From Nitrospirota bacterium (GTDB lineage Bacteria; Nitrospirota; Thermodesulfovibrionia; SZUA-242), in the NCBI GenBank assembly GCA_003235715.1, contig QJVM01000026.1:1-42347 (forward strand): a DNA stretch of 42,347 bases, given 5' to 3'. Shown in pieces: positions 10,018-21,749 of the stretch. How positions within the stretch are numbered: position 1 is the first letter of the stretch; each line of letters begins with the position of its first letter. The notes beneath the pieces are model-generated. The model was not told where the DNA came from, did not search any database, and saw nothing but the letters and a program-made list of their open reading frames with translations. Made by a program: the position numbers and the translations under genes.

Positions 10018-10854
10018 TCAGAGACCCCGAACAAGGGCGATATCCTGGGCAGGGACCCACCCGACGCGGTCTTTCGTAAAGAAAACAAGAGCATAGCTCC
10101 CCTCCAGACGGCGCGCCTCCACACGTGTTCCGGCATGCAGACGGAAGAGTTCCGTGGAGGCGGCATCGGTACCCGACCGCACCGCCACCTCGTCGGCGAG
10201 GATAATGGCGTCCGCCGCGTAGGCCTCTTCGTAGTAGTTGTAAAAGGCCGTAGCCACCAAAAGGACCGCGACAAACCCCGTGAGTACAATCGCGACCCGA
10301 ACGGGGTTTCCACGGGAAAACCTCTTCAGGCCGAGAAACGTCCAGAAGGCGCACCAGAAGAAGAGGGCCGTCCACCGGACGGACCGGTCGGACATCCGGT
10401 ACTTCCAGAAGAAAAGAATCCGCCCGAGGGGGACCTCGGGATTCTCGACCTCATCGCGCGTGAGCGCCCTCGCATAGTCCAGGTTGTACAGAAGGTCCGC
10501 GTTGCCCGGTATCCGCTTCAACGCGCGTTCATACCACAAGATGGCCCGACCGAGGTCCCCGGACTTCAGGTAACCGTTACCCAGATTGAAATACAGCAGC
10601 CCGGACTCGTAGCCCCGGCTGACCAGATTCGAAAACGCCTCGACCGCCGCCGCATAGTCCCCGGACTCATAGGCCCGCACCCCGGCCAGAAACGTATCCG
10701 TATCCTCGCGTTGAATCGTTTCCGCGGCCTGGACGTGATCCGCCCCCCACAGAAGAAAGAGAAAAACGACCGCGAAGGCCACCCCTGAAACCAAAGGAAG
10801 AATAGCCTTCAACCGGCCGGCGGGCCGGGATCCGATACTTCTTTCCGCCGTCAT
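10018..10854 (-). CDS. batE: BatE: TPR and SH3-like domain protein
   Basis: The protein has 278 residues. A membrane segment or signal (about 18-40) is followed by TPR repeats (F-L-A-G-V-R-A-Y-E-S-G-D-Y-A-A-A, then L-L-Y-F-N-L-G-N-G-Y). Two membrane helices (about 155-205) precede an SH3-like C-terminal domain ending in DRVGWVPAQDIALV. It is the last gene of the Bat operon. Its ATG overlaps the batD stop (ATGA at 10851-10854), so translation is coupled. BatE proteins are membrane components of the Bat complex, associated with stress or oxygen tolerance; the biochemical role is unclear. Confidence 0.9.
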   Translation of the reverse strand: MTAERSIGSRPAGRLKAILPLVSGVAFAVVFLFLLWGADHVQAAETIQREDTDTFLAGVRAYESGDYAAAVEAFSNLVSRGYESGLLYFNLGNGYLKSGDLGRAILWYERALKRIPGNADLLYNLDYARALTRDEVENPEVPLGRILFFWKYRMSDRSVRWTALFFWCAFWTFLGLKRFSRGNPVRVAIVLTGFVAVLLVATAFYNYYEEAYAADAIILADEVAVRSGTDAASTELFRLHAGTRVEARRLEGSYALVFFTKDRVGWVPAQDIALVRGL

Positions 10855-12611
10855 GTCCGTCTCCCCGTCATCGTTCGTACCACGCGGGACACCTCCTCAT
10901 GAAGCCGCCCGACACCGGCTTCCGGGGGCGTCCCGCCGTAGCGGGCCTCATCGATCCTGACGAGCAGGGAAAGCACCTGACGGGTGTCCTCGTCCGAGAC
11001 CCCGCAAGCCCCAAGGAGGTCGCGAGCTTCGTCATAGGTCAGGGATTCTCCAGCCCGGCCCCCGACAGAAAGGACTGCTGAAACGAGCGCCCGGTATAGA
11101 AGGGTCAGCGTATCGCGATCCTTGCCGGAGTTCCCGGCGTTCCCGGCCTCCTTCAGGAGGATGCGCGCCCTCAGGGCCATGTGGTCCCGCGCCGAGAGGG
11201 ACCGTCGCCGCGCCCGGGTCAGGCTCATCACGCCAAGATACACAAGCGGAGGGAACAACAGCCCCACCATAAAAAGGCGCAGATTCATCCGCCAGCCATG
11301 GCGCAGGACCTCGAGGTCCTTCCGAATGGAAAGAATGTCCTGACCGGTTCGGACCACCCGTTTCTTGGGGGAAAGGATTGACTCGCCTGTGGAAAGAGTC
11401 AAAGAAGGGAGCGTCGTTGTGCCTCCTTCGGACGAAGGAAGAACATTCATCGAAAGAGCCCGGAAGGTCAGTTCCCTGTATTCGCCTGCCTTTGGATCAA
11501 ATACCGTGTACGCAAAAGGGCCCAGGGTAAACGCCCCCTCTTCCACGGGAACAAGGGCAAAGCGAAAGGTCTTCCTGCCCTTTGTTCCGACCGCATCCCG
11601 GGTCACCGATTCTTCGGGGTCATCGGGATAGACCTTGGCCCACTCGGGCTTCCTGAAAGCGGGTTCCGGCGCATCGGGCACATTGCCCGTCCCTTCCAGA
11701 GTAAGGGTCAACGTAACGGAATCCCCCACCCTGACCTCCCTGTCTTCCAGGGAGGCTTTGAGCTCGAAGGTTCCCATCAGCCCTGAAAAAGTTCCCGGAC
11801 CCTTGTACTCCGGCAGGGCCCTCACCGTGACCGGTATGGCCTCCGAGCGTACGCTCCGCGTAACCGTGCGCGTGCCGGAAAAGAAAGGATCCTCGAAGAA
11901 CGACCCGAAAGGCGACCGGGGTCGGGAAGAGCTTGAAGGATCGGCCACTTCGCAGGTGAGAATACCGGGCTCGATGGTCAGGCTCCCTGAACGGAGAGGG
12001 GTGAGAAGGTACGTCACCTCGGTCACGGTGTACGATCTGCCGTTGACCACGCTGGAATACTCCTTCTGGCCGTCCGCTTCCCTTACCGTGAACCCGTCAA
12101 AGGAAGGTTTCTGATACCGGGCACTGAACACCTTGGTGCCCGCAAGAAAACGGAACGTGTAGGCAATCTCCTGTCCCGCCCACGGCCTGGCTTCCGATAC
12201 CGAGGCCACCATGAGCAGGTCGCCGCTGCCCGAAGACCCCGTAGCCTTGCTCACCTGTATCGTTACGGGGTCCGTGCGCACCGTTTCTTGACCGCTCCGA
12301 ACCGTCAGGGACGGGATCACCAGGGTTCCACTCCTGAGCGGGGTCAGGGTGTACATCAGGTGAATCTCTCGGGTCATCTGGGTGTTCACAATGCGCACCG
12401 AGGAGGAGCGGCCGCGATAGGCGACCCTGAAATCCTTGATCGGCGACACATCCACCTCGCCTTCGCCATCGGTCATCACCAGGCGAAGTTCGAGGGATTC
12501 CTGCTCCGATATCCGGTTCCGGTCGACCAGGGCTTGCACGGAGAGGGCCTCTGCGGCACAGGGGATCGCAACCACCCAGAACACAAGGGCCATCGCGCAA
12601 AGGGATTTCAT
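10851..12611 (-). CDS. batD: BatD: Ig-like repeat membrane protein
   Basis: The protein has 586 residues from ATG 12611, where a signal peptide starts (MKSLCAMALVFWVV, cleaved near AEA); 48 upstream codons have no signal character. The large extracytoplasmic part is built of beta-sandwich repeats with the BatD/oxygen-tolerance pattern (V-D-R-N-R-I-S-E-Q-E-S-L-E-L, later L-E-D-R-E-V-R-V-G-D-S-V-T-L-T-L). A single C-terminal helix (about 445-465) and a cytoplasmic helical tail follow. It sits between the batB-C fusion and batE, and probably scaffolds the VWA proteins. Confidence 0.9.
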   Translation of the reverse strand: MKSLCAMALVFWVVAIPCAAEALSVQALVDRNRISEQESLELRLVMTDGEGEVDVSPIKDFRVAYRGRSSSVRIVNTQMTREIHLMYTLTPLRSGTLVIPSLTVRSGQETVRTDPVTIQVSKATGSSGSGDLLMVASVSEARPWAGQEIAYTFRFLAGTKVFSARYQKPSFDGFTVREADGQKEYSSVVNGRSYTVTEVTYLLTPLRSGSLTIEPGILTCEVADPSSSSRPRSPFGSFFEDPFFSGTRTVTRSVRSEAIPVTVRALPEYKGPGTFSGLMGTFELKASLEDREVRVGDSVTLTLTLEGTGNVPDAPEPAFRKPEWAKVYPDDPEESVTRDAVGTKGRKTFRFALVPVEEGAFTLGPFAYTVFDPKAGEYRELTFRALSMNVLPSSEGGTTTLPSLTLSTGESILSPKKRVVRTGQDILSIRKDLEVLRHGWRMNLRLFMVGLLFPPLVYLGVMSLTRARRRSLSARDHMALRARILLKEAGNAGNSGKDRDTLTLLYRALVSAVLSVGGRAGESLTYDEARDLLGACGVSDEDTRQVLSLLVRIDEARYGGTPPEAGVGRLHEEVSRVVRTMTGRRT

Positions 12612-12687
12612 ACAGGAACCTGAGACACGCCTGAAGACCCCATCGGCGTTGGTGTTGAGGGGGCGACCTGAAATGAGTTCTCTCACC

Positions 12688-14460
12688 TTACCAGTCCTTC
12701 TCCACCTGGCGCTTGCTGTAGACCGGCAGAAGGGCTCTTCCGGGCCTGTCCTCAAGCCGGTTCAGCATCCGTTCCTCCCGTGCGGGGTCCATCGAACGAC
12801 CAGGCTCCTGGCGGCCTTCCGCAACCCCCTGGTCTTTTTCCTGTTTCCCGCCGTCCTCCGCCTTCTCCGCCTGATTCGTTTCCTTGCGTTCCCTGGATTC
12901 CGGCTTTACGTCGGCCTCCTGGTCCCGGTCTTCCTCGCGGCCCTCCCCCGAAGGTTCGCCCTTTTGTGCAGACGGGTCGTCCTTCTTTTCCTCGCCTTCC
13001 CGACGATTCTCGGGCCTTTCTTCCTGTGAGGCCTCCTGGTTCCTCTCTTCGATGCGCTTCTTCACGAATTCAAGGTTCTTCCGGGCCTCCTCGTCCCGTG
13101 GGTTCAGCTCAAGAACCTGCTCGTAACTCTTCACGCTGTCCTCGAAGCGTCCAAGACGGTACTGGGTGTTTCCGAGATTGAAGAGGCTTCTGGCCTTGAG
13201 ATCCGTATCCTCTGACTGAGAGGCCGCCTCGAAGTTCCGAAGGGCCGCCTCATAATCCCCTTTCTTGTACTGAGCACTTCCGGAATCGTAGGAAAGTTCC
13301 GCAACGCCGGGTTCCTCCACCTGGGCCCGCACAAAAGCGTTCACGGCTGATTCATAGTCACCGGCTTCGTAATGACGGATCCCTTCCCGAACTTGGCCCG
13401 GGGCTCCGGAAGCCTCAACTCCGTTTGCCCCAAAAACACCCAGGACCAGGCACAGGACGATCCCCCTTGTGCGTTTCCTGCCCCCGTAGAGCACAAACTC
13501 CGCGACGAGAAGAATCAGGGCCAACCCCAGGGGCCACTGATAACGGTTCTCCCAGACACGCGTCCGGCTGTCCTCAAGGGTCCGGGCTTCCATCTTGCCC
13601 CGAATCTCACGGTCATAAATCACGTCCCAGTCGGTATCGTCCAGGGTCGCCGGCACATAGACGCCTCCAGTCCTGGCGACCACCTTTCGGATGGTTACTT
13701 CTTCAAGCTTCGTGAGCACAATGTTTCCCGCCGCATCCTTTTTGAAGCCGCCTCCGGCCTCCGGTATGGGGGCTCCCTGGCCCGTTCCCACCCCCACCCC
13801 ATGGATCACCACCCCGGCCTCGCGGGCACGGTCGGCCGCGTCAAAGGGATCGCCTAGAGTCGGTTGGCCATCCGTAAGGACAATGATGACCTTTTCAGCA
13901 GGGCTCTTTGGGTCAAAGCCTTTCAGCGCCGTGTCTATGGCTTCGGCAAGAGCGGAGCCTCCCACGGGCAGAAAATCCGGACCGAGCGCATTCAGAAACA
14001 GATGGAACCCCGCATAATCCACCGTGAGCGGGCATTGGAGGAAGGCGGTTCCCGCAAAAGCCACCAGACCCACACGGTCGCCCTCAAGCCGGTTCAGGAA
14101 ATCGATAATCTCGCGTTTGGCCCGGGCCAGACGATTGGGTTTGACATCCTCGGCCAGCATGCTCCGGGATACGTCAAGAACCATCATGATGTCCACACCC
14201 CGCCGCTCAACGGTCCTCCATCGGTAGCCGTAAAGCGGGCCGGCCACCGCCAGGGTCATAAGCACGAAGGCGGATACGGCCAGGATCGAGCCCGCCAGGC
14301 GTTGATGACCGTCCGCTGTCCTGACGATACGGGTCAGGGTTTCCCTGCGCGCAAATCGGCCCAGAATTTTCCGTCGGCTTCTTAAGCCCCACCACAGGAG
14401 CAGCGCCATGACAGGCACAAGCCAGACCAGATACAGGGCCTGGGGTGCTGCAAGTTTCAT
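12688..14460 (-). CDS. BatB-BatC fusion: VWA domain plus TPR protein
   Basis: The protein has 590 residues from ATG 14460 (MKLAAPQALYL). Two membrane helices precede a von Willebrand A domain with the intact MIDAS motif DVSRS (96-100) and a later TDG. A further helix (about 315) leads to TPR repeats (R-E-G-I-R-H-Y-E-A-G-D-Y-E-S-A and following). A very charged Glu/Lys/Arg linker and the BatC-type end (L-N-R-L-E-D-R-P-G-R-A-L-L-P-V-Y) then follow, closing with EKDW. In many genomes batB and batC are separate; here they are one chain. The gene begins 16 nt after the batA stop. Confidence 0.92.
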   Translation of the reverse strand: MKLAAPQALYLVWLVPVMALLLWWGLRSRRKILGRFARRETLTRIVRTADGHQRLAGSILAVSAFVLMTLAVAGPLYGYRWRTVERRGVDIMMVLDVSRSMLAEDVKPNRLARAKREIIDFLNRLEGDRVGLVAFAGTAFLQCPLTVDYAGFHLFLNALGPDFLPVGGSALAEAIDTALKGFDPKSPAEKVIIVLTDGQPTLGDPFDAADRAREAGVVIHGVGVGTGQGAPIPEAGGGFKKDAAGNIVLTKLEEVTIRKVVARTGGVYVPATLDDTDWDVIYDREIRGKMEARTLEDSRTRVWENRYQWPLGLALILLVAEFVLYGGRKRTRGIVLCLVLGVFGANGVEASGAPGQVREGIRHYEAGDYESAVNAFVRAQVEEPGVAELSYDSGSAQYKKGDYEAALRNFEAASQSEDTDLKARSLFNLGNTQYRLGRFEDSVKSYEQVLELNPRDEEARKNLEFVKKRIEERNQEASQEERPENRREGEEKKDDPSAQKGEPSGEGREEDRDQEADVKPESRERKETNQAEKAEDGGKQEKDQGVAEGRQEPGRSMDPAREERMLNRLEDRPGRALLPVYSKRQVEKDW

Positions 14461-14476
14461 CCACTCCCCCTCGTTC

Positions 14477-15472
14477 TCACGGAATCTCCAGATAGCGCGT
14501 ATGGGACAACGCATGCGACAGAAAGAGAAACGCGAGAGCCGGTACGACAAACCAGGCGTACAGGTCATTGAAATTGTCATAACTCTTGACCCTCACCTCG
14601 GTCCGCTCCAACTCGTCGATCCGGTCGTAGATTCGCTTCAACCCCTCGGAGTCCGACGCGTTGAAATAGAGGCCCCCGGTCTTGCCGGCGATCTCCTTCA
14701 GGGCTTCCTCATCGATGTCGACCTCCTGGTACACCACGCGCTGTCCCCACAAGGGATCGTTCACCACAAAGGGGACCGGGCCTTTGGATCCCACGCCGAT
14801 CGTATAGACCTTCACCTTGTTGCCGACCGCAATGGAGGTGGCCGCGGTCGGGTCCAGTTCGCCTGTATTGGATCGGCCGTCCGTGAGCAGAATGATGATG
14901 TTGGATTTGCTCTCGATGTCCCTGAGGCGTTTCAACGATATCCCGATGGCGTCTCCGATGGCGGTGGCCTTGCCCGCCGCACCGATCGCCAGCCGGTCGA
15001 TTACGGACAGGAGTGCCGAATAATCGTTCGTCAGCGGAATCTGCGTATAGGCTTCGGAACCGAAAACCACAAGCCCGATGCGGTCGCCGTCCCGCTTGCC
15101 GACGAAGTCCTTCACCACCTGTTTTACGGCCTCCAGTCGATTGACCGCCTTGCCCCCGAGTTTGAAATCCAGGGCCGACATGCTTTCCGAAAGGTCCATG
15201 GCCAGCACGATGTTCACCCCCTCCGTCAGGCGAACGCTCTCCCGGGTTCCCCACTGGGGCCGGGCCATGGCCAGGATCACCAGCACCAGCGCCAATACCT
15301 TGAGCCCGGGAACAATCCATTGCGTGCGGACGGTCAAAGACCGGGGCAGCGTCCCGCCCATGACCAGGGTGGGGGTCCCCAATCCGGGACGCTTCCGCTT
15401 CCCAAGGAGATGAAGGATCCACGGAAGGGTCAGAAGCGCGGCAAGCCAGAATGGAGACTCAAACCGGTACAT
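14477..15472 (-). CDS. batA: BatA: VWA-domain membrane protein
   Basis: The protein has 331 residues. Two N-terminal helices (8-24 and 55-72) precede the VWA domain with MIDAS motif DLSES (93-97) and LLTDGRSNTG. A C-terminal helix (about 305-323) anchors it, so the VWA domain is held at the membrane. The start overlaps the end of the DUF4381-like gene by 14 bases, which supports operon coupling. VWA domains bind partner proteins through the metal site, and MoxR ATPases are their usual partners. Confidence 0.93.
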   Translation of the reverse strand: MYRFESPFWLAALLTLPWILHLLGKRKRPGLGTPTLVMGGTLPRSLTVRTQWIVPGLKVLALVLVILAMARPQWGTRESVRLTEGVNIVLAMDLSESMSALDFKLGGKAVNRLEAVKQVVKDFVGKRDGDRIGLVVFGSEAYTQIPLTNDYSALLSVIDRLAIGAAGKATAIGDAIGISLKRLRDIESKSNIIILLTDGRSNTGELDPTAATSIAVGNKVKVYTIGVGSKGPVPFVVNDPLWGQRVVYQEVDIDEEALKEIAGKTGGLYFNASDSEGLKRIYDRIDELERTEVRVKSYDNFNDLYAWFVVPALAFLFLSHALSHTRYLEIP

Positions 15473-16151
15473 GGGGTTTCTCTTCCTCCAGGCCCCGCCG
15501 GGTGGCTCTCACAAAACCCAGCGCAAAAGCCATATCTTCCCTCCTGCGGACGGGACCGGCCGGAGCCGACGCGTACTTTACGGGGTCCGCAGAACGAAGA
15601 AGGTTCAACAGCGACATCTGCAGGTCGGGTTCCGACTCAATCCGGCCAAGGACGGGCACAAGCTCTTCCGTGGTCTTCTCCAGGGTGTCGGTTCCGTAGC
15701 GACGGTCCAGGTAATGGCGGAGAATACCCGTCAGACGGAAATAATATTCCCGGTCCGGGATCCCTTCACAGGACTCCAAATCCCTGAGCGAATCAAGGGC
15801 CTCCTCGTCTTCCGGCACCCGCGGCAGAACCGCAGCCTTTTCGGGCTTCCTCTTTCTCCTGCGCCAGAAGTACAACACGGCAATGACGGCGAGGATCATG
15901 CTGATCGCAAGCGCGAGGAACAGCAGGCGGGGGTCCATCCCGTAGGGGACAGGCGGACGGATGTCGATGATATCGGTCATCTCCGCCACCGGGCCCCCTT
16001 CGGATTCGGGAGCTGACGTAGAGGCCCCGTCAGACGCGGTCGACAGCCTCTGTTCCGAAGCCCGCACATCCGTCCCGGTCCAGACCACCAGGACGAGCGC
16101 CAGCAAAATCAGCCATCCCCCCGACCCGTCCACGCGCATTCGCGGGTTCAT
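15459..16151 (-). CDS. DUF4381-like membrane protein of the Bat operon
   Basis: The protein has 230 residues. A signal peptide or first helix (10-30) is followed by a short acidic segment and a second helix (about 76-96) with a basic stop-transfer RRRKRKPEK. The cytoplasmic helical domain contains REYYFRLTGILRHYLDRRYG, the typical signature at this operon position. It overlaps the DUF58 gene by 4 bases and batA by 14. Its role is not known; position suggests a membrane link between MoxR/DUF58 and the VWA proteins. Confidence 0.82.
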   Translation of the reverse strand: MNPRMRVDGSGGWLILLALVLVVWTGTDVRASEQRLSTASDGASTSAPESEGGPVAEMTDIIDIRPPVPYGMDPRLLFLALAISMILAVIAVLYFWRRRKRKPEKAAVLPRVPEDEEALDSLRDLESCEGIPDREYYFRLTGILRHYLDRRYGTDTLEKTTEELVPVLGRIESEPDLQMSLLNLLRSADPVKYASAPAGPVRRREDMAFALGFVRATRRGLEEEKPHVPV

Positions 16152-17029
16152 CGATATCGCGCCCTTTCCCGGGCCCTGAAGAAACGACGAAGCGGGTCCA
16201 CCAGGGAACCATCCGTAGAGATTTCGACCACATCCACGTCCGCTCGACGGAAGACCGCCCGTGTGTCTCTGTAACGGGTCTCCACCCAGGCGGCATAGCG
16301 TCTTGCCGTCTCTGCGTGGGCCGCGTCCAGCACGAGGCGGCGGCCGCTCTCCAGGTCTTCGAGCTCAACGAGTCCGGCCTCGGGCAAGCGTCCGTCGCCG
16401 GGGTCCGAAACGAGGACACTGATCACGTCGTGTTTGCGTGCCGTCACGGCAAGGGCCCGCCCATAGTCCCGGTCGTGAAAGTCCGAAATGAGAAAGGCCA
16501 CGGTTCGTTTGCGCATCACCCGACCGAAGAACCGAACCGCAGCAGCAATATCGGTCTTCCCGCTCTGGGGCTGACAGGTCAGAATCTCCCGGATCACGCG
16601 CCATACATGGGCAGCGCCCTTTTTGGGAGGAATGTAGCGTTCCACCCGGTCGGTAAAGAGAATCGCCCCGATCCGGTCATTGTTTCTGATGGCATTGAAG
16701 GCCAGGATGGCCGCCATCTCGGCCGCCGTTTCGCGTTTCAACCGGTGGACGGTCCCGAAGGCTCCGGACTCGCTCAGGTCCACGAGAACCATGACGACCA
16801 GTTCGCGCTCCTCACGGTAGCGCTTCACATAAGGCCGCCCCATGCGGGACGTGACGTTCCAGTCAATCGTCTTCACCTCATCGCCCGGCACGTACTCCCG
16901 GACCTCCTCGAACTCCATGCCCAGCCCGCGAAAGGCCGAGTGGTACTGGCCCGCCATGATCGTATCGACCATGCGACGGGTCCGGATATGGATGCCCTTG
17001 ATCTGGCGGATGACTTCAGCAGACAGCAC
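16148..17029 (-). CDS. DUF58-domain protein
   Basis: The protein has 293 residues without membrane helices. It has the DUF58 signature PGDEVKTIDWNVTSRMG (48-64) followed by a degenerate VWA-like fold (VMVLVDLSESGAFG; DISDFHD-like FLISDFHDRDYG). It starts 26 nt after the moxR stop. Proteins of this type are regularly paired with MoxR ATPases and probably act as their adaptor or substrate. Confidence 0.93.
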   Translation of the reverse strand: MLSAEVIRQIKGIHIRTRRMVDTIMAGQYHSAFRGLGMEFEEVREYVPGDEVKTIDWNVTSRMGRPYVKRYREERELVVMVLVDLSESGAFGTVHRLKRETAAEMAAILAFNAIRNNDRIGAILFTDRVERYIPPKKGAAHVWRVIREILTCQPQSGKTDIAAAVRFFGRVMRKRTVAFLISDFHDRDYGRALAVTARKHDVISVLVSDPGDGRLPEAGLVELEDLESGRRLVLDAAHAETARRYAAWVETRYRDTRAVFRRADVDVVEISTDGSLVDPLRRFFRARERARYR

Positions 17030-17055
17030 AGGGTGTCACCATGAACCGGCCCCCC

Positions 17056-18051
17056 TCAGGGAACCTCCACCGAATCAAAGACCCGCCCGATGATCTCTTC
17101 GGACGTGATGTCCTCGGCCTCCGCCTCATAACCCAGGATGATGCGGTGCCGGAGCACGTCCGGTGCGATGGACTTGATGTCCTGCGGGGTCACGTAGGCC
17201 CGGCCCTGAAGAAACGCATAGGCCCGGGAGGCCACCCCAAGGTAGATGGAGGCGCGGGGCGAGGCCCCGTATTCGATATAGGATTCGATGTCCAGGCCAT
17301 ACTCCTTGGGCCGTCGCGTGGCATTGACCAGATTGACGATGTAGTCAAAAAGCTTCTCGTCCAGGTAGATGCCGGAAATAAGGGTTCGCATTTCCTTGAG
17401 TTCTTCGGGGTTGACCACGGCGGGAACCTGCATTCCTTCCACGGCTTCAGCCCGCTTCATGATGTCCCTCTCTTCCGTGGGCGAAGGGTAATCCACCAAG
17501 ACCTTGAACATGAAACGGTCCACCTGCGCTTCCGGAAGGGGGTAGGTTCCCTCCTGTTCAATGGGATTTTGCGTGGCCAGAACAAGGAAGGGGTCGCCCA
17601 GTCGGTAGGTCTTGTCCCCGATGGTGACTTGGTGCTCCTGCATCGCCTCCAGAAGGGCCGATTGGACTTTTGACGGGGCCCGGTTGATCTCGTCCGCGAG
17701 AATGATGTTGTTGAAGATCGGTCCCGTCTTTACGACAAAGTCTCCGGTCGCCGGCCGGTAAACCTCGGTCCCGAGAATATCGGCCGGCAACAGGTCGGGC
17801 GTGAACTGGATCCGTTTGAAGTCCGCGTGGATGGTCTGGGCGAGCGCCTTGACCGCGCTCGTCTTGGCCAGTCCGGGAACCCCTTCGATGAGAATGTGCC
17901 CCCTCGTAAAAAGTCCCATCAGGAGGCGGTCGATCAAGGCCCCCTGCCCCACAATGACCTTGCTGATCTCGTTTCGCATCTGCTGAACGAGAACGTGCTT
18001 TTCCCTGACCCTGTCCGTTGTCTGTTGAATATCCACGTTCCTTGCCTCCAT
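17056..18051 (-). CDS. MoxR-family AAA+ ATPase
   Basis: The protein has 331 residues. Walker A is GVPGLAKT (57-64), Walker B IILADEIN (116-123), and sensor 1 falls in LATQNPIEQEGTYPLPEAQ. A C-terminal lid contains YGASPRAS. It is the first gene of a seven-gene operon and supplies the ATPase that is thought to remodel or insert cofactors into VWA proteins. All ATPase motifs are intact. An AT-rich block with a possible promoter lies upstream. Confidence 0.95.
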   Translation of the reverse strand: MEARNVDIQQTTDRVREKHVLVQQMRNEISKVIVGQGALIDRLLMGLFTRGHILIEGVPGLAKTSAVKALAQTIHADFKRIQFTPDLLPADILGTEVYRPATGDFVVKTGPIFNNIILADEINRAPSKVQSALLEAMQEHQVTIGDKTYRLGDPFLVLATQNPIEQEGTYPLPEAQVDRFMFKVLVDYPSPTEERDIMKRAEAVEGMQVPAVVNPEELKEMRTLISGIYLDEKLFDYIVNLVNATRRPKEYGLDIESYIEYGASPRASIYLGVASRAYAFLQGRAYVTPQDIKSIAPDVLRHRIILGYEAEAEDITSEEIIGRVFDSVEVP

Positions 18052-20532: not shown

Positions 20533-21144
20533 TTAACCGTCTGCGGCGCGGCGAGCCCGTTCAACCAGGCTGAGCAGGGCTTCCACCGGCTGAACCCCGC
20601 TCGCCATAGCCTCAGGACCTGCGACGAAAGCGGGTACCGCGGAAATCTCGAGACCGGCCGCCTCCTCGATATCCCCCTGAACTCCTTCTGCATGTTCATG
20701 CCTGTCGAGTGAGTCTCGCAAGGCCCGGCCATCCAGCCCCAGCAAGACCGCAAGCCCCCCCAGCACCTCCGTATCCCCGATATCCTCTCCCCTTTCAAAG
20801 AAAGCCCGGAACAGTTCCGCATGATAATCCTCAAAACGCCCCACGGATCGAGCCCAGTGAGCGGCCTCATGCGCCAGCCGCGTCCGCGGCTGGACCGGCG
20901 GCAGATTCATGGTCATGCCCATCTTCATGGCCATCGGCTGAACATGCTCCCTCCAGACCCTTTGAATATAGGGGGCGTTGGGGTCCAGTGCCGGGAAACC
21001 TTCGGGACGGAGTTCAAAGGCCGCCCAGACGGCTTCCACATCCGGCATCCGACGCGTTAACTCCCTCAAGGCTGGCTCCGCCAGCCAGCAGAACGGTCAC
21101 ACGTAGTCGGAAAAGATTTTAAGTCTCACCTTATGAATGGTCAT
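20533..21144 (-). CDS. DsbA/FrnE-family selenoprotein, UPFC active site
   Basis: The frame runs from ATG 21144 to 20533 with one internal TGA at 21099-21097 (codon 16). The N-terminus reads KIFSDYV-(TGA)-PFCW, where DsbA/FrnE proteins have a C-P-x-C redox motif; so the first active-site cysteine is selenocysteine (U16) and C19 is the second. The rest has the helical insertion and the cis-proline motif SAVPAF of the thioredoxin fold. The 203-residue length is normal. GGAAGGGAG is the ribosome site upstream of the ATG. No signal peptide is seen, so it is probably cytoplasmic, like FrnE. A perfect SECIS-like hairpin follows the TGA. An automatic call would start at 21069 and lose the whole active site. 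Confidence 0.88.
21070..21099 (-). promoter_or_regulatory. UGA(Sec) codon and SECIS-like hairpin in the DsbA/FrnE gene
   Basis: On the minus strand TGA (21099-21097) is followed by 10 nt and a perfect 7-bp stem GGCTGGC (21086-21080) / GCCAGCC (21076-21070) with loop GGA. The loop starts 18 nt after the UGA and begins with GG, as required for bacterial SECIS recognition by SelB. Confidence 0.85.
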
Positions 21145-21329
21145 CCGTCACTCCCTTCCTTCCTATTGAATACCATATTCCGGCGTTTCTGGATATCCGG
21201 TCCCCTGCCCTTCTGAACCGGTACCTTGCATTTTGCAGTTTCAACGTTGAGGTATAAGATGGAGCCTGGGGAAACATCAAGCTCTTTGGGTAGATGAGGG
21301 AATTGCAATCCTGAAGGAGGATGAACAAG

Positions 21330-21749
21330 ATGAGAAAGTTCACCGTAGTCATGCTGTCCCTTGTCCTGGTCCTGGGCCTGGTTGCCCTGGCCACGGCGAA
21401 ACATCACGCGGTCAAGGTGGCTGAAAAAGAGGGCGTCGGGTCTTACCTCACCGATACCGAAGGAAAAGCCCTTTACTGGTTCAAGAACGATTCTCCGGGA
21501 AAAAGCGCCTGTGCCGGAGGCTGTATACAGAAATGGCCCGTGTATTACAGGGAGACCGTAGCTCCCACCGGCAACCTGAAAGCTGAGGATTTCGGAACCA
21601 TAACACGCGATGACGGCACCAAACAGAGCACCTTCCGCGGGTATCCGCTGTATTACTGGTCCGGAGATGAAAAGGAAGGCGATACAAACGGTCAAGGCGT
21701 AAAGAACGTCTGGTTCGTCATCGACCCGGGCAACTTCCCGGCTCACTGA
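21330..21749 (+). CDS. Exported PF03640 (secreted repeat, COG4315) protein
   Basis: The protein has 139 residues. I use ATG 21330 rather than 21321, because GGAGG ends at 21320 and fits only the later start. A signal peptide (MRKFTVVMLSLVLVLGLVALATA) is followed by two repeats of the family motif: YLTDTEGKALYWFKNDSPGKSACAGGC and F-R-G-Y-P-L-Y-Y-W. The third block is K-N-V-W-F-V-I-D-P. Two cysteines (in SACAGGC) are close together. The family is widespread, exported and of unknown function. Confidence 0.88.
   Translation: MRKFTVVMLSLVLVLGLVALATAKHHAVKVAEKEGVGSYLTDTEGKALYWFKNDSPGKSACAGGCIQKWPVYYRETVAPTGNLKAEDFGTITRDDGTKQSTFRGYPLYYWSGDEKEGDTNGQGVKNVWFVIDPGNFPAH

Follow-up and report, generated by a model that had tools for sequence, protein, structure and literature searches.

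Does the in-frame TGA of the gene at 20533-21144 end its translation, or does it encode selenocysteine (Sec) in the active site of a redox enzyme? The gene lies on the minus strand of the window, the whole 42,347-nucleotide stretch of DNA analysed here. Its frame runs from ATG 21144-21142 to a stop at 20535-20533 and specifies 203 residues. Only one stop falls within it, TGA 21099-21097, at the first residue of a UPFC motif. The read-through product begins MTIHKVRLKIFSDYV-U-PFCW, which places the putative Sec (U) in the context IFSDYV-U-PFCW. Judged from sequence, it is very likely that this UGA is read as Sec, which would form part of the active site of a cytoplasmic redox enzyme belonging to the FrnE branch of the DsbA family, with insertion by SelB directed by a hairpin. 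The features concerned are the following.

20533..21144, minus strand: gene for a putative Sec-containing FrnE/DsbA-type oxidoreductase, based on read-through translation, the Pfam DSBA match, the match to FrnE (5cnw) and coding constraint.
21097..21099, minus strand: UGA codon, putative Sec, residue 1 of UPFC; Cys in the homologues L026, L027 and L048, TGA in sister genes.
21088..21099, minus strand: redox motif U-P-F-C, aligning with CPWC of FrnE.
21070..21086, minus strand: candidate SECIS hairpin GGCUGGC-GGA-GCCAGCC, with 7 Watson-Crick pairs and 17 nt between the UGA and the loop.

The original prediction had put the TGA at the first cysteine of a C-P-x-C motif, and this placement is borne out by the read-through frame, the UPFC motif and the Cys found in homologues. 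Coding constraint appears to act on both sides of the UGA, because the differences between the window gene and L026 are distributed 72/55/131 over codon positions 1/2/3 of the 203 codons. Synonymous divergence (dS) is saturated when the window gene is compared with its relatives, and for this reason a dN/dS ratio is not reported. A gene at 21321-21749 (plus strand), whose product is a secreted Lipoprotein_15 repeat protein, is divergent to the putative selenoprotein gene and has a common upstream region with it.

With Sec replaced by Cys, residues 7-192 matched Pfam DSBA (PF01323) at 1.4e-29, scoring 103.6 bits against a curated cut-off of 25.6. Residues 3-193 matched FrnE in the PDB (5cnw) at 2.4e-20, with UPFC aligned to CPWC. 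The conserved columns C16, C19, V170 and P171 hold UPFC and AVPAF, the latter with a proline before a late strand at the position of the presumed cis-Pro loop. FrnE proteins are described as thiol oxidoreductases that belong to the DsbA family and act in the cytoplasm, and the Deinococcus radiodurans protein has insulin reduction and disulfide isomerase activity in vitro (PMC8945050). No signal peptide was seen at the N-terminus of the window protein, suggesting that it too is cytoplasmic. The Cys of UPFC is its sole ordinary Cys. It thus has no C-terminal CXXXXC, the pair for which a role in regeneration was proposed in D. radiodurans FrnE (PMC8945050). Because the FrnE proteins of D. maricopensis and S. 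roseofulvus also miss CXXXXC (PMC8945050), this pair is not a defining feature of FrnE. The predicted structure model, made from three sequences, was poor (mean pLDDT 44.8) and not usable to judge a thioredoxin fold with helical insert.

We next consider the relatives. A scan of named genomes found the nearest homologues, 63% and 59% identical and both with CPFC, in two MAGs of the Pyrinomonadaceae (Acidobacteriota). Alignment confirmed Cys at the UGA column in these nearest homologues, with Cys read in L026, L027 and L048, and the nearest relatives carry TGC there, a single base from TGA. Plasmid and phage collections returned DsbA-type matches only, all below 60% identity. In 230 genomes of the window's class, FrnE-type matches spanning the motif were counted. 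All 11, the window included, had exactly one internal stop, a TGA in the U position of a UPWC or UPFC motif; the other ten genes come from nine genomes. Sampling was extended to 395 genomes of the phylum. There, ten genomes of family f25, outside the class, carry TGA in UPFC or UPYC, and other families outside the class had Cys in the matches read out. Class and phylum together gave 20 further TGA genes of FrnE type, and in these distant genes the frame downstream is intact.

The form of the gene followed the presence of selA. Among 20 genomes of the phylum sample, selA was found in seven of eight with the TGA form and in none of 12 with the Cys form. The TGA-form genome with no selA match (G258, L050) is a fragmented MAG of 460 contigs, and the absence is probably due to a missing contig. 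The two Pyrinomonadaceae genomes have the Cys form yet possess selA. A 38-protein tree requires at least three changes of the Sec label. The window protein groups with the Pyrinomonadaceae Cys proteins (96/87) and then with L048, a Cys protein of the phylum; this narrow subfamily (window, L026, L027, L048) has no other TGA copy. Which way each change went is not readable from the tree. The pattern across the phylum is that FrnE-type enzymes have Sec where the genome decodes Sec and Cys where selA is absent, the form having switched three times or more. Secreted or lipoprotein-like DsbA/DsbG genes whose motif reads YQ-U-PFC or YQ-U-PHC occur often in the class, L015, L016 and L018 being examples from same-class genomes, so that Sec is common in this fold there.

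Reading UGA as Sec needs dedicated machinery, and the original prediction had supposed a working Sec system from two independent UGA codons in one window. Two heuristic, non-exhaustive screens of the window revealed no second selenoprotein with UGA, so this argument is not supported. Ordinary genes were returned when the neighbouring ORFs were scanned against Pfam. The system itself is established without it: by sequence the machinery is complete in the window's genome, with tRNA-Sec (70 bits, anticodon TCA), SelA (620 bits), SelB (356 bits) and SelD (353 bits). The genes selA and selB adjoin on contig C95 (L019), whereas tRNA-Sec and selD are located on two further contigs, one on each (loci L020 and L001, with G000:C48). 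The SelD gene has its own in-frame UGA (CGUAAK) and a 7-pair hairpin with a GGACUU loop. Two more Sec candidates of this genome are DsbG-like: L045 (G000:C135), with FQ-U-PHC, and L046 (G000:C240), with YQ-U-PYC. An 8-pair hairpin with loop GUC lies 19 nt after the UGA of L045, and L046 had no comparable hairpin in the strict test described below. Neither decayed nonsense relatives nor a genome devoid of Sec machinery, either of which had been named as speaking against the prediction, was found: Cys codon and frame are intact in the relatives, and the machinery is complete.

The machinery lies on other contigs, and we checked that the window belongs with them. Tetranucleotide composition of the window correlated with that of the selAB and tRNA-Sec contigs at 0.97 for large pieces and 0.93 for pieces of 18-24 kb; other genomes gave values from -0.02 to 0.45. 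The MoxR gene of the window has its best matches, at 70-72% identity, in the two same-family genomes, where the order of the Bat operon is kept. Since composition is shared and the MoxR matches come with the same operon order, the contig is judged to be no foreign contaminant and to belong to the Sec-decoding genome. This Bat-type operon (10851-18051, minus strand) comprises BatD, VWA-TPR, BatA, DUF4381, DUF58 and MoxR, in the same order in both same-family genomes. The genes flanking frnE had no counterpart beside the Bat operon in the available pieces of these two genomes, and an insertion, if there was one, can therefore not be dated.

A SECIS-like hairpin with a GGA loop had also been predicted just after the TGA. 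The hairpin is present, but its evidential weight proved smaller than claimed. Bacterial SECIS elements are stem-loops just after the UGA, with a small G-containing loop at about 16-37 nt, and the candidate has this form. Its fold is only about 2 SD better than that of shuffled sequences, and a loose SECIS definition was passed by 24% of synonymous recodings and by 13.5% of in-frame positions in the window's other genes. The window hairpin alone is thus modest evidence, and the loose test was rejected as a discriminator. A strict definition required a loop of 3-8 nt starting GG or GU, 16-24 nt from the UGA, and at least 7 Watson-Crick pairs. Of the recodings, 0.12% satisfied it, as did 0.17% of the in-frame positions tested in the window's other genes, figures that are indicative only, as the definition was fixed post hoc, after sight of the window and sister elements.

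Similar GG-loop elements occur in the sister genes and also, within the window's genome, in the gene for SelD. Among Sec genes of the f4/f5 groups, identical residues used the same codon in 94% of comparisons in codons 4-12 after the UGA and in 55-60% further on; for f25 Sec genes the values were 86% and 49-60%, and for Cys genes 71% and 58-69%. Because synonymous change is suppressed just after the UGA, as is typical of a SECIS and unlike in Cys genes, the downstream RNA element is judged to be real in the sister Sec genes. In the f25 stem, 93.9% of cells pair, against 19-48% with the partner slid, and one pair changes from G-C to A-U in three of nine sequences. Covariation in f25 is thin, since there is hardly any variation at the remaining pairs. 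When G-U pairs were admitted and GG or GU had to fall among loop bases 1-3, 7 pairs were reached in 12 of 19 Sec genes and in none of 19 Cys genes; in the window's genome, SelD and one DsbG-like gene out of two reached them as well. Of the seven Sec genes below 7 pairs, six have a longer stem broken by a single mismatch, and the last forms 6 pairs. Among the Cys relatives, L027 forms 5 pairs and L026 forms 1. L027 (4875-5498), a Cys homologue from a Pyrinomonadaceae MAG, carries a 5-pair version of the window hairpin with identical GGA loop and distance; this may be either a SECIS remnant or a latent precursor.

These data bear on the main rival to the Sec reading, namely that an ordinary FrnE gene of the Cys type acquired its TGA through a mistake in sequencing or assembly, or through a fresh nonsense mutation. 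The isolation of the window gene as the single TGA copy in its narrow subfamily is in line with such an error, as are the TGC of its nearest relatives, one base away, and the selA of both Pyrinomonadaceae genomes with the Cys form. Such an error would however have had to strike exactly the redox Cys, in a Sec-decoding genome, when every other FrnE-type gene found in the class has TGA at this place. It would also have left the frame otherwise intact and fallen just upstream of a hairpin that is rare among recodings (by the strict, post hoc definition) and has fewer pairs in L027 and L026. We regard an error or nonsense mutation as improbable.

The start of the gene raises another alternative. 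The mechanical (table-11) ORF list opens the gene at TTG 21069, 25 codons late, and the motif is lost. The original prediction was right that this call removes the active site, and the annotation is corrected here, as the default ORF would drop that part of the enzyme. Were translation to start at this TTG or later, a shortened DsbA-like product lacking the active site would be made and the UGA would end a short upstream frame. The dropped part, however, holds the first strand of DSBA as well as the redox motif. Its codons 5' of the UGA are kept as protein (VRLKIFSDYV in the window, VRLEVFSDYV in homologues), and the ATG is directly preceded by a purine-rich ribosome-binding stretch, GGAAGGGAG. 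A late start is thus very improbable. Equally so is a reading of UGA as another amino acid, by a reassigned code or unspecific suppression, which has a readable frame in its favour and nothing more, given that window genes such as AcrB, MoxR and a two-component pair have no internal TGA, that full Sec machinery is present and that CCA, the standard anticodon, was read in the Trp tRNA.

With the UGA taken as Sec, the window gene and its Pyrinomonadaceae relatives may record a recent switch between Cys and Sec, in which a SECIS grew from, or decayed into, ordinary coding sequence. We propose this tentatively, at somewhat less than even chances. It is based on L027, with its 5-pair hairpin, the GGA loop and distance of the window, and a genome with selA. 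A Cys gene of Acidobacteriota kin could have been taken up by a Sec-decoding bacterium, TGC then changing to TGA over a latent hairpin. Conversely, a Sec gene could have reverted to Cys and left a hairpin remnant. The window gene and L027 are one base apart at the key codon and few apart in the hairpin, making them a natural pair for studying how coding sequence becomes a working SECIS.

In the proposed mechanism, the hairpin just 3' of UGA 21099-21097 would act as the SECIS of the window gene and direct SelB, with Sec-tRNA(Sec), to insert Sec at this codon. The Sec would then attack a substrate disulfide, or a thiol donor would reduce the selenide-sulfide that Sec forms with its partner Cys. 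This Cys, located three positions after the Sec, would resolve the mixed bond. By analogy with FrnE, and with thioredoxin-fold selenoproteins in general, Sec most likely attacks and Cys resolves, and the enzyme would reduce or isomerise disulfides in the cytoplasm.

How does the gene compare with known systems? Literature naming FrnE together with selenocysteine was not found, the matches being unrelated uses of the string. We take COG2761 to be the FrnE group. DsbA-like selenoproteins with UXXC were described in 2005 (COG2761, nine sequences; PMC1088965) and are catalogued under PF01323 as 'DsbA-like protein form 1' (PMC9312934, PMC13188914). Families of this kind are also on record as having switched from Cys to Sec, and Cys genes as retaining SECIS-like remnants (PMC1794560). 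Since DsbA-like UxxC selenoproteins are already catalogued, Sec in this protein family is known and the window gene adds a member. It shares with them the Pfam family, Sec as first residue of UxxC, a candidate SECIS just downstream and widespread Cys homologues. It differs in that the other members found of its narrow subfamily are Cys forms; the published members are likened by description. DsbG-like selenoproteins (PF13462/NF041057, UxxC), of which the window's genome has two candidate genes, likewise combine a thioredoxin fold with Sec first in UPxC, but belong to another Pfam family, and the window protein scores far below the NF041057 cut-off (18.7 bits against 190). Finally, FrnE of D. 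radiodurans (DR_0659; PDB 5cnw) has the same DsbA-type thioredoxin domain and an N-terminal CPWC where the window protein has UPFC. The window protein differs from it in its putative Sec in place of the first Cys and in lacking the C-terminal CXXXXC pair.
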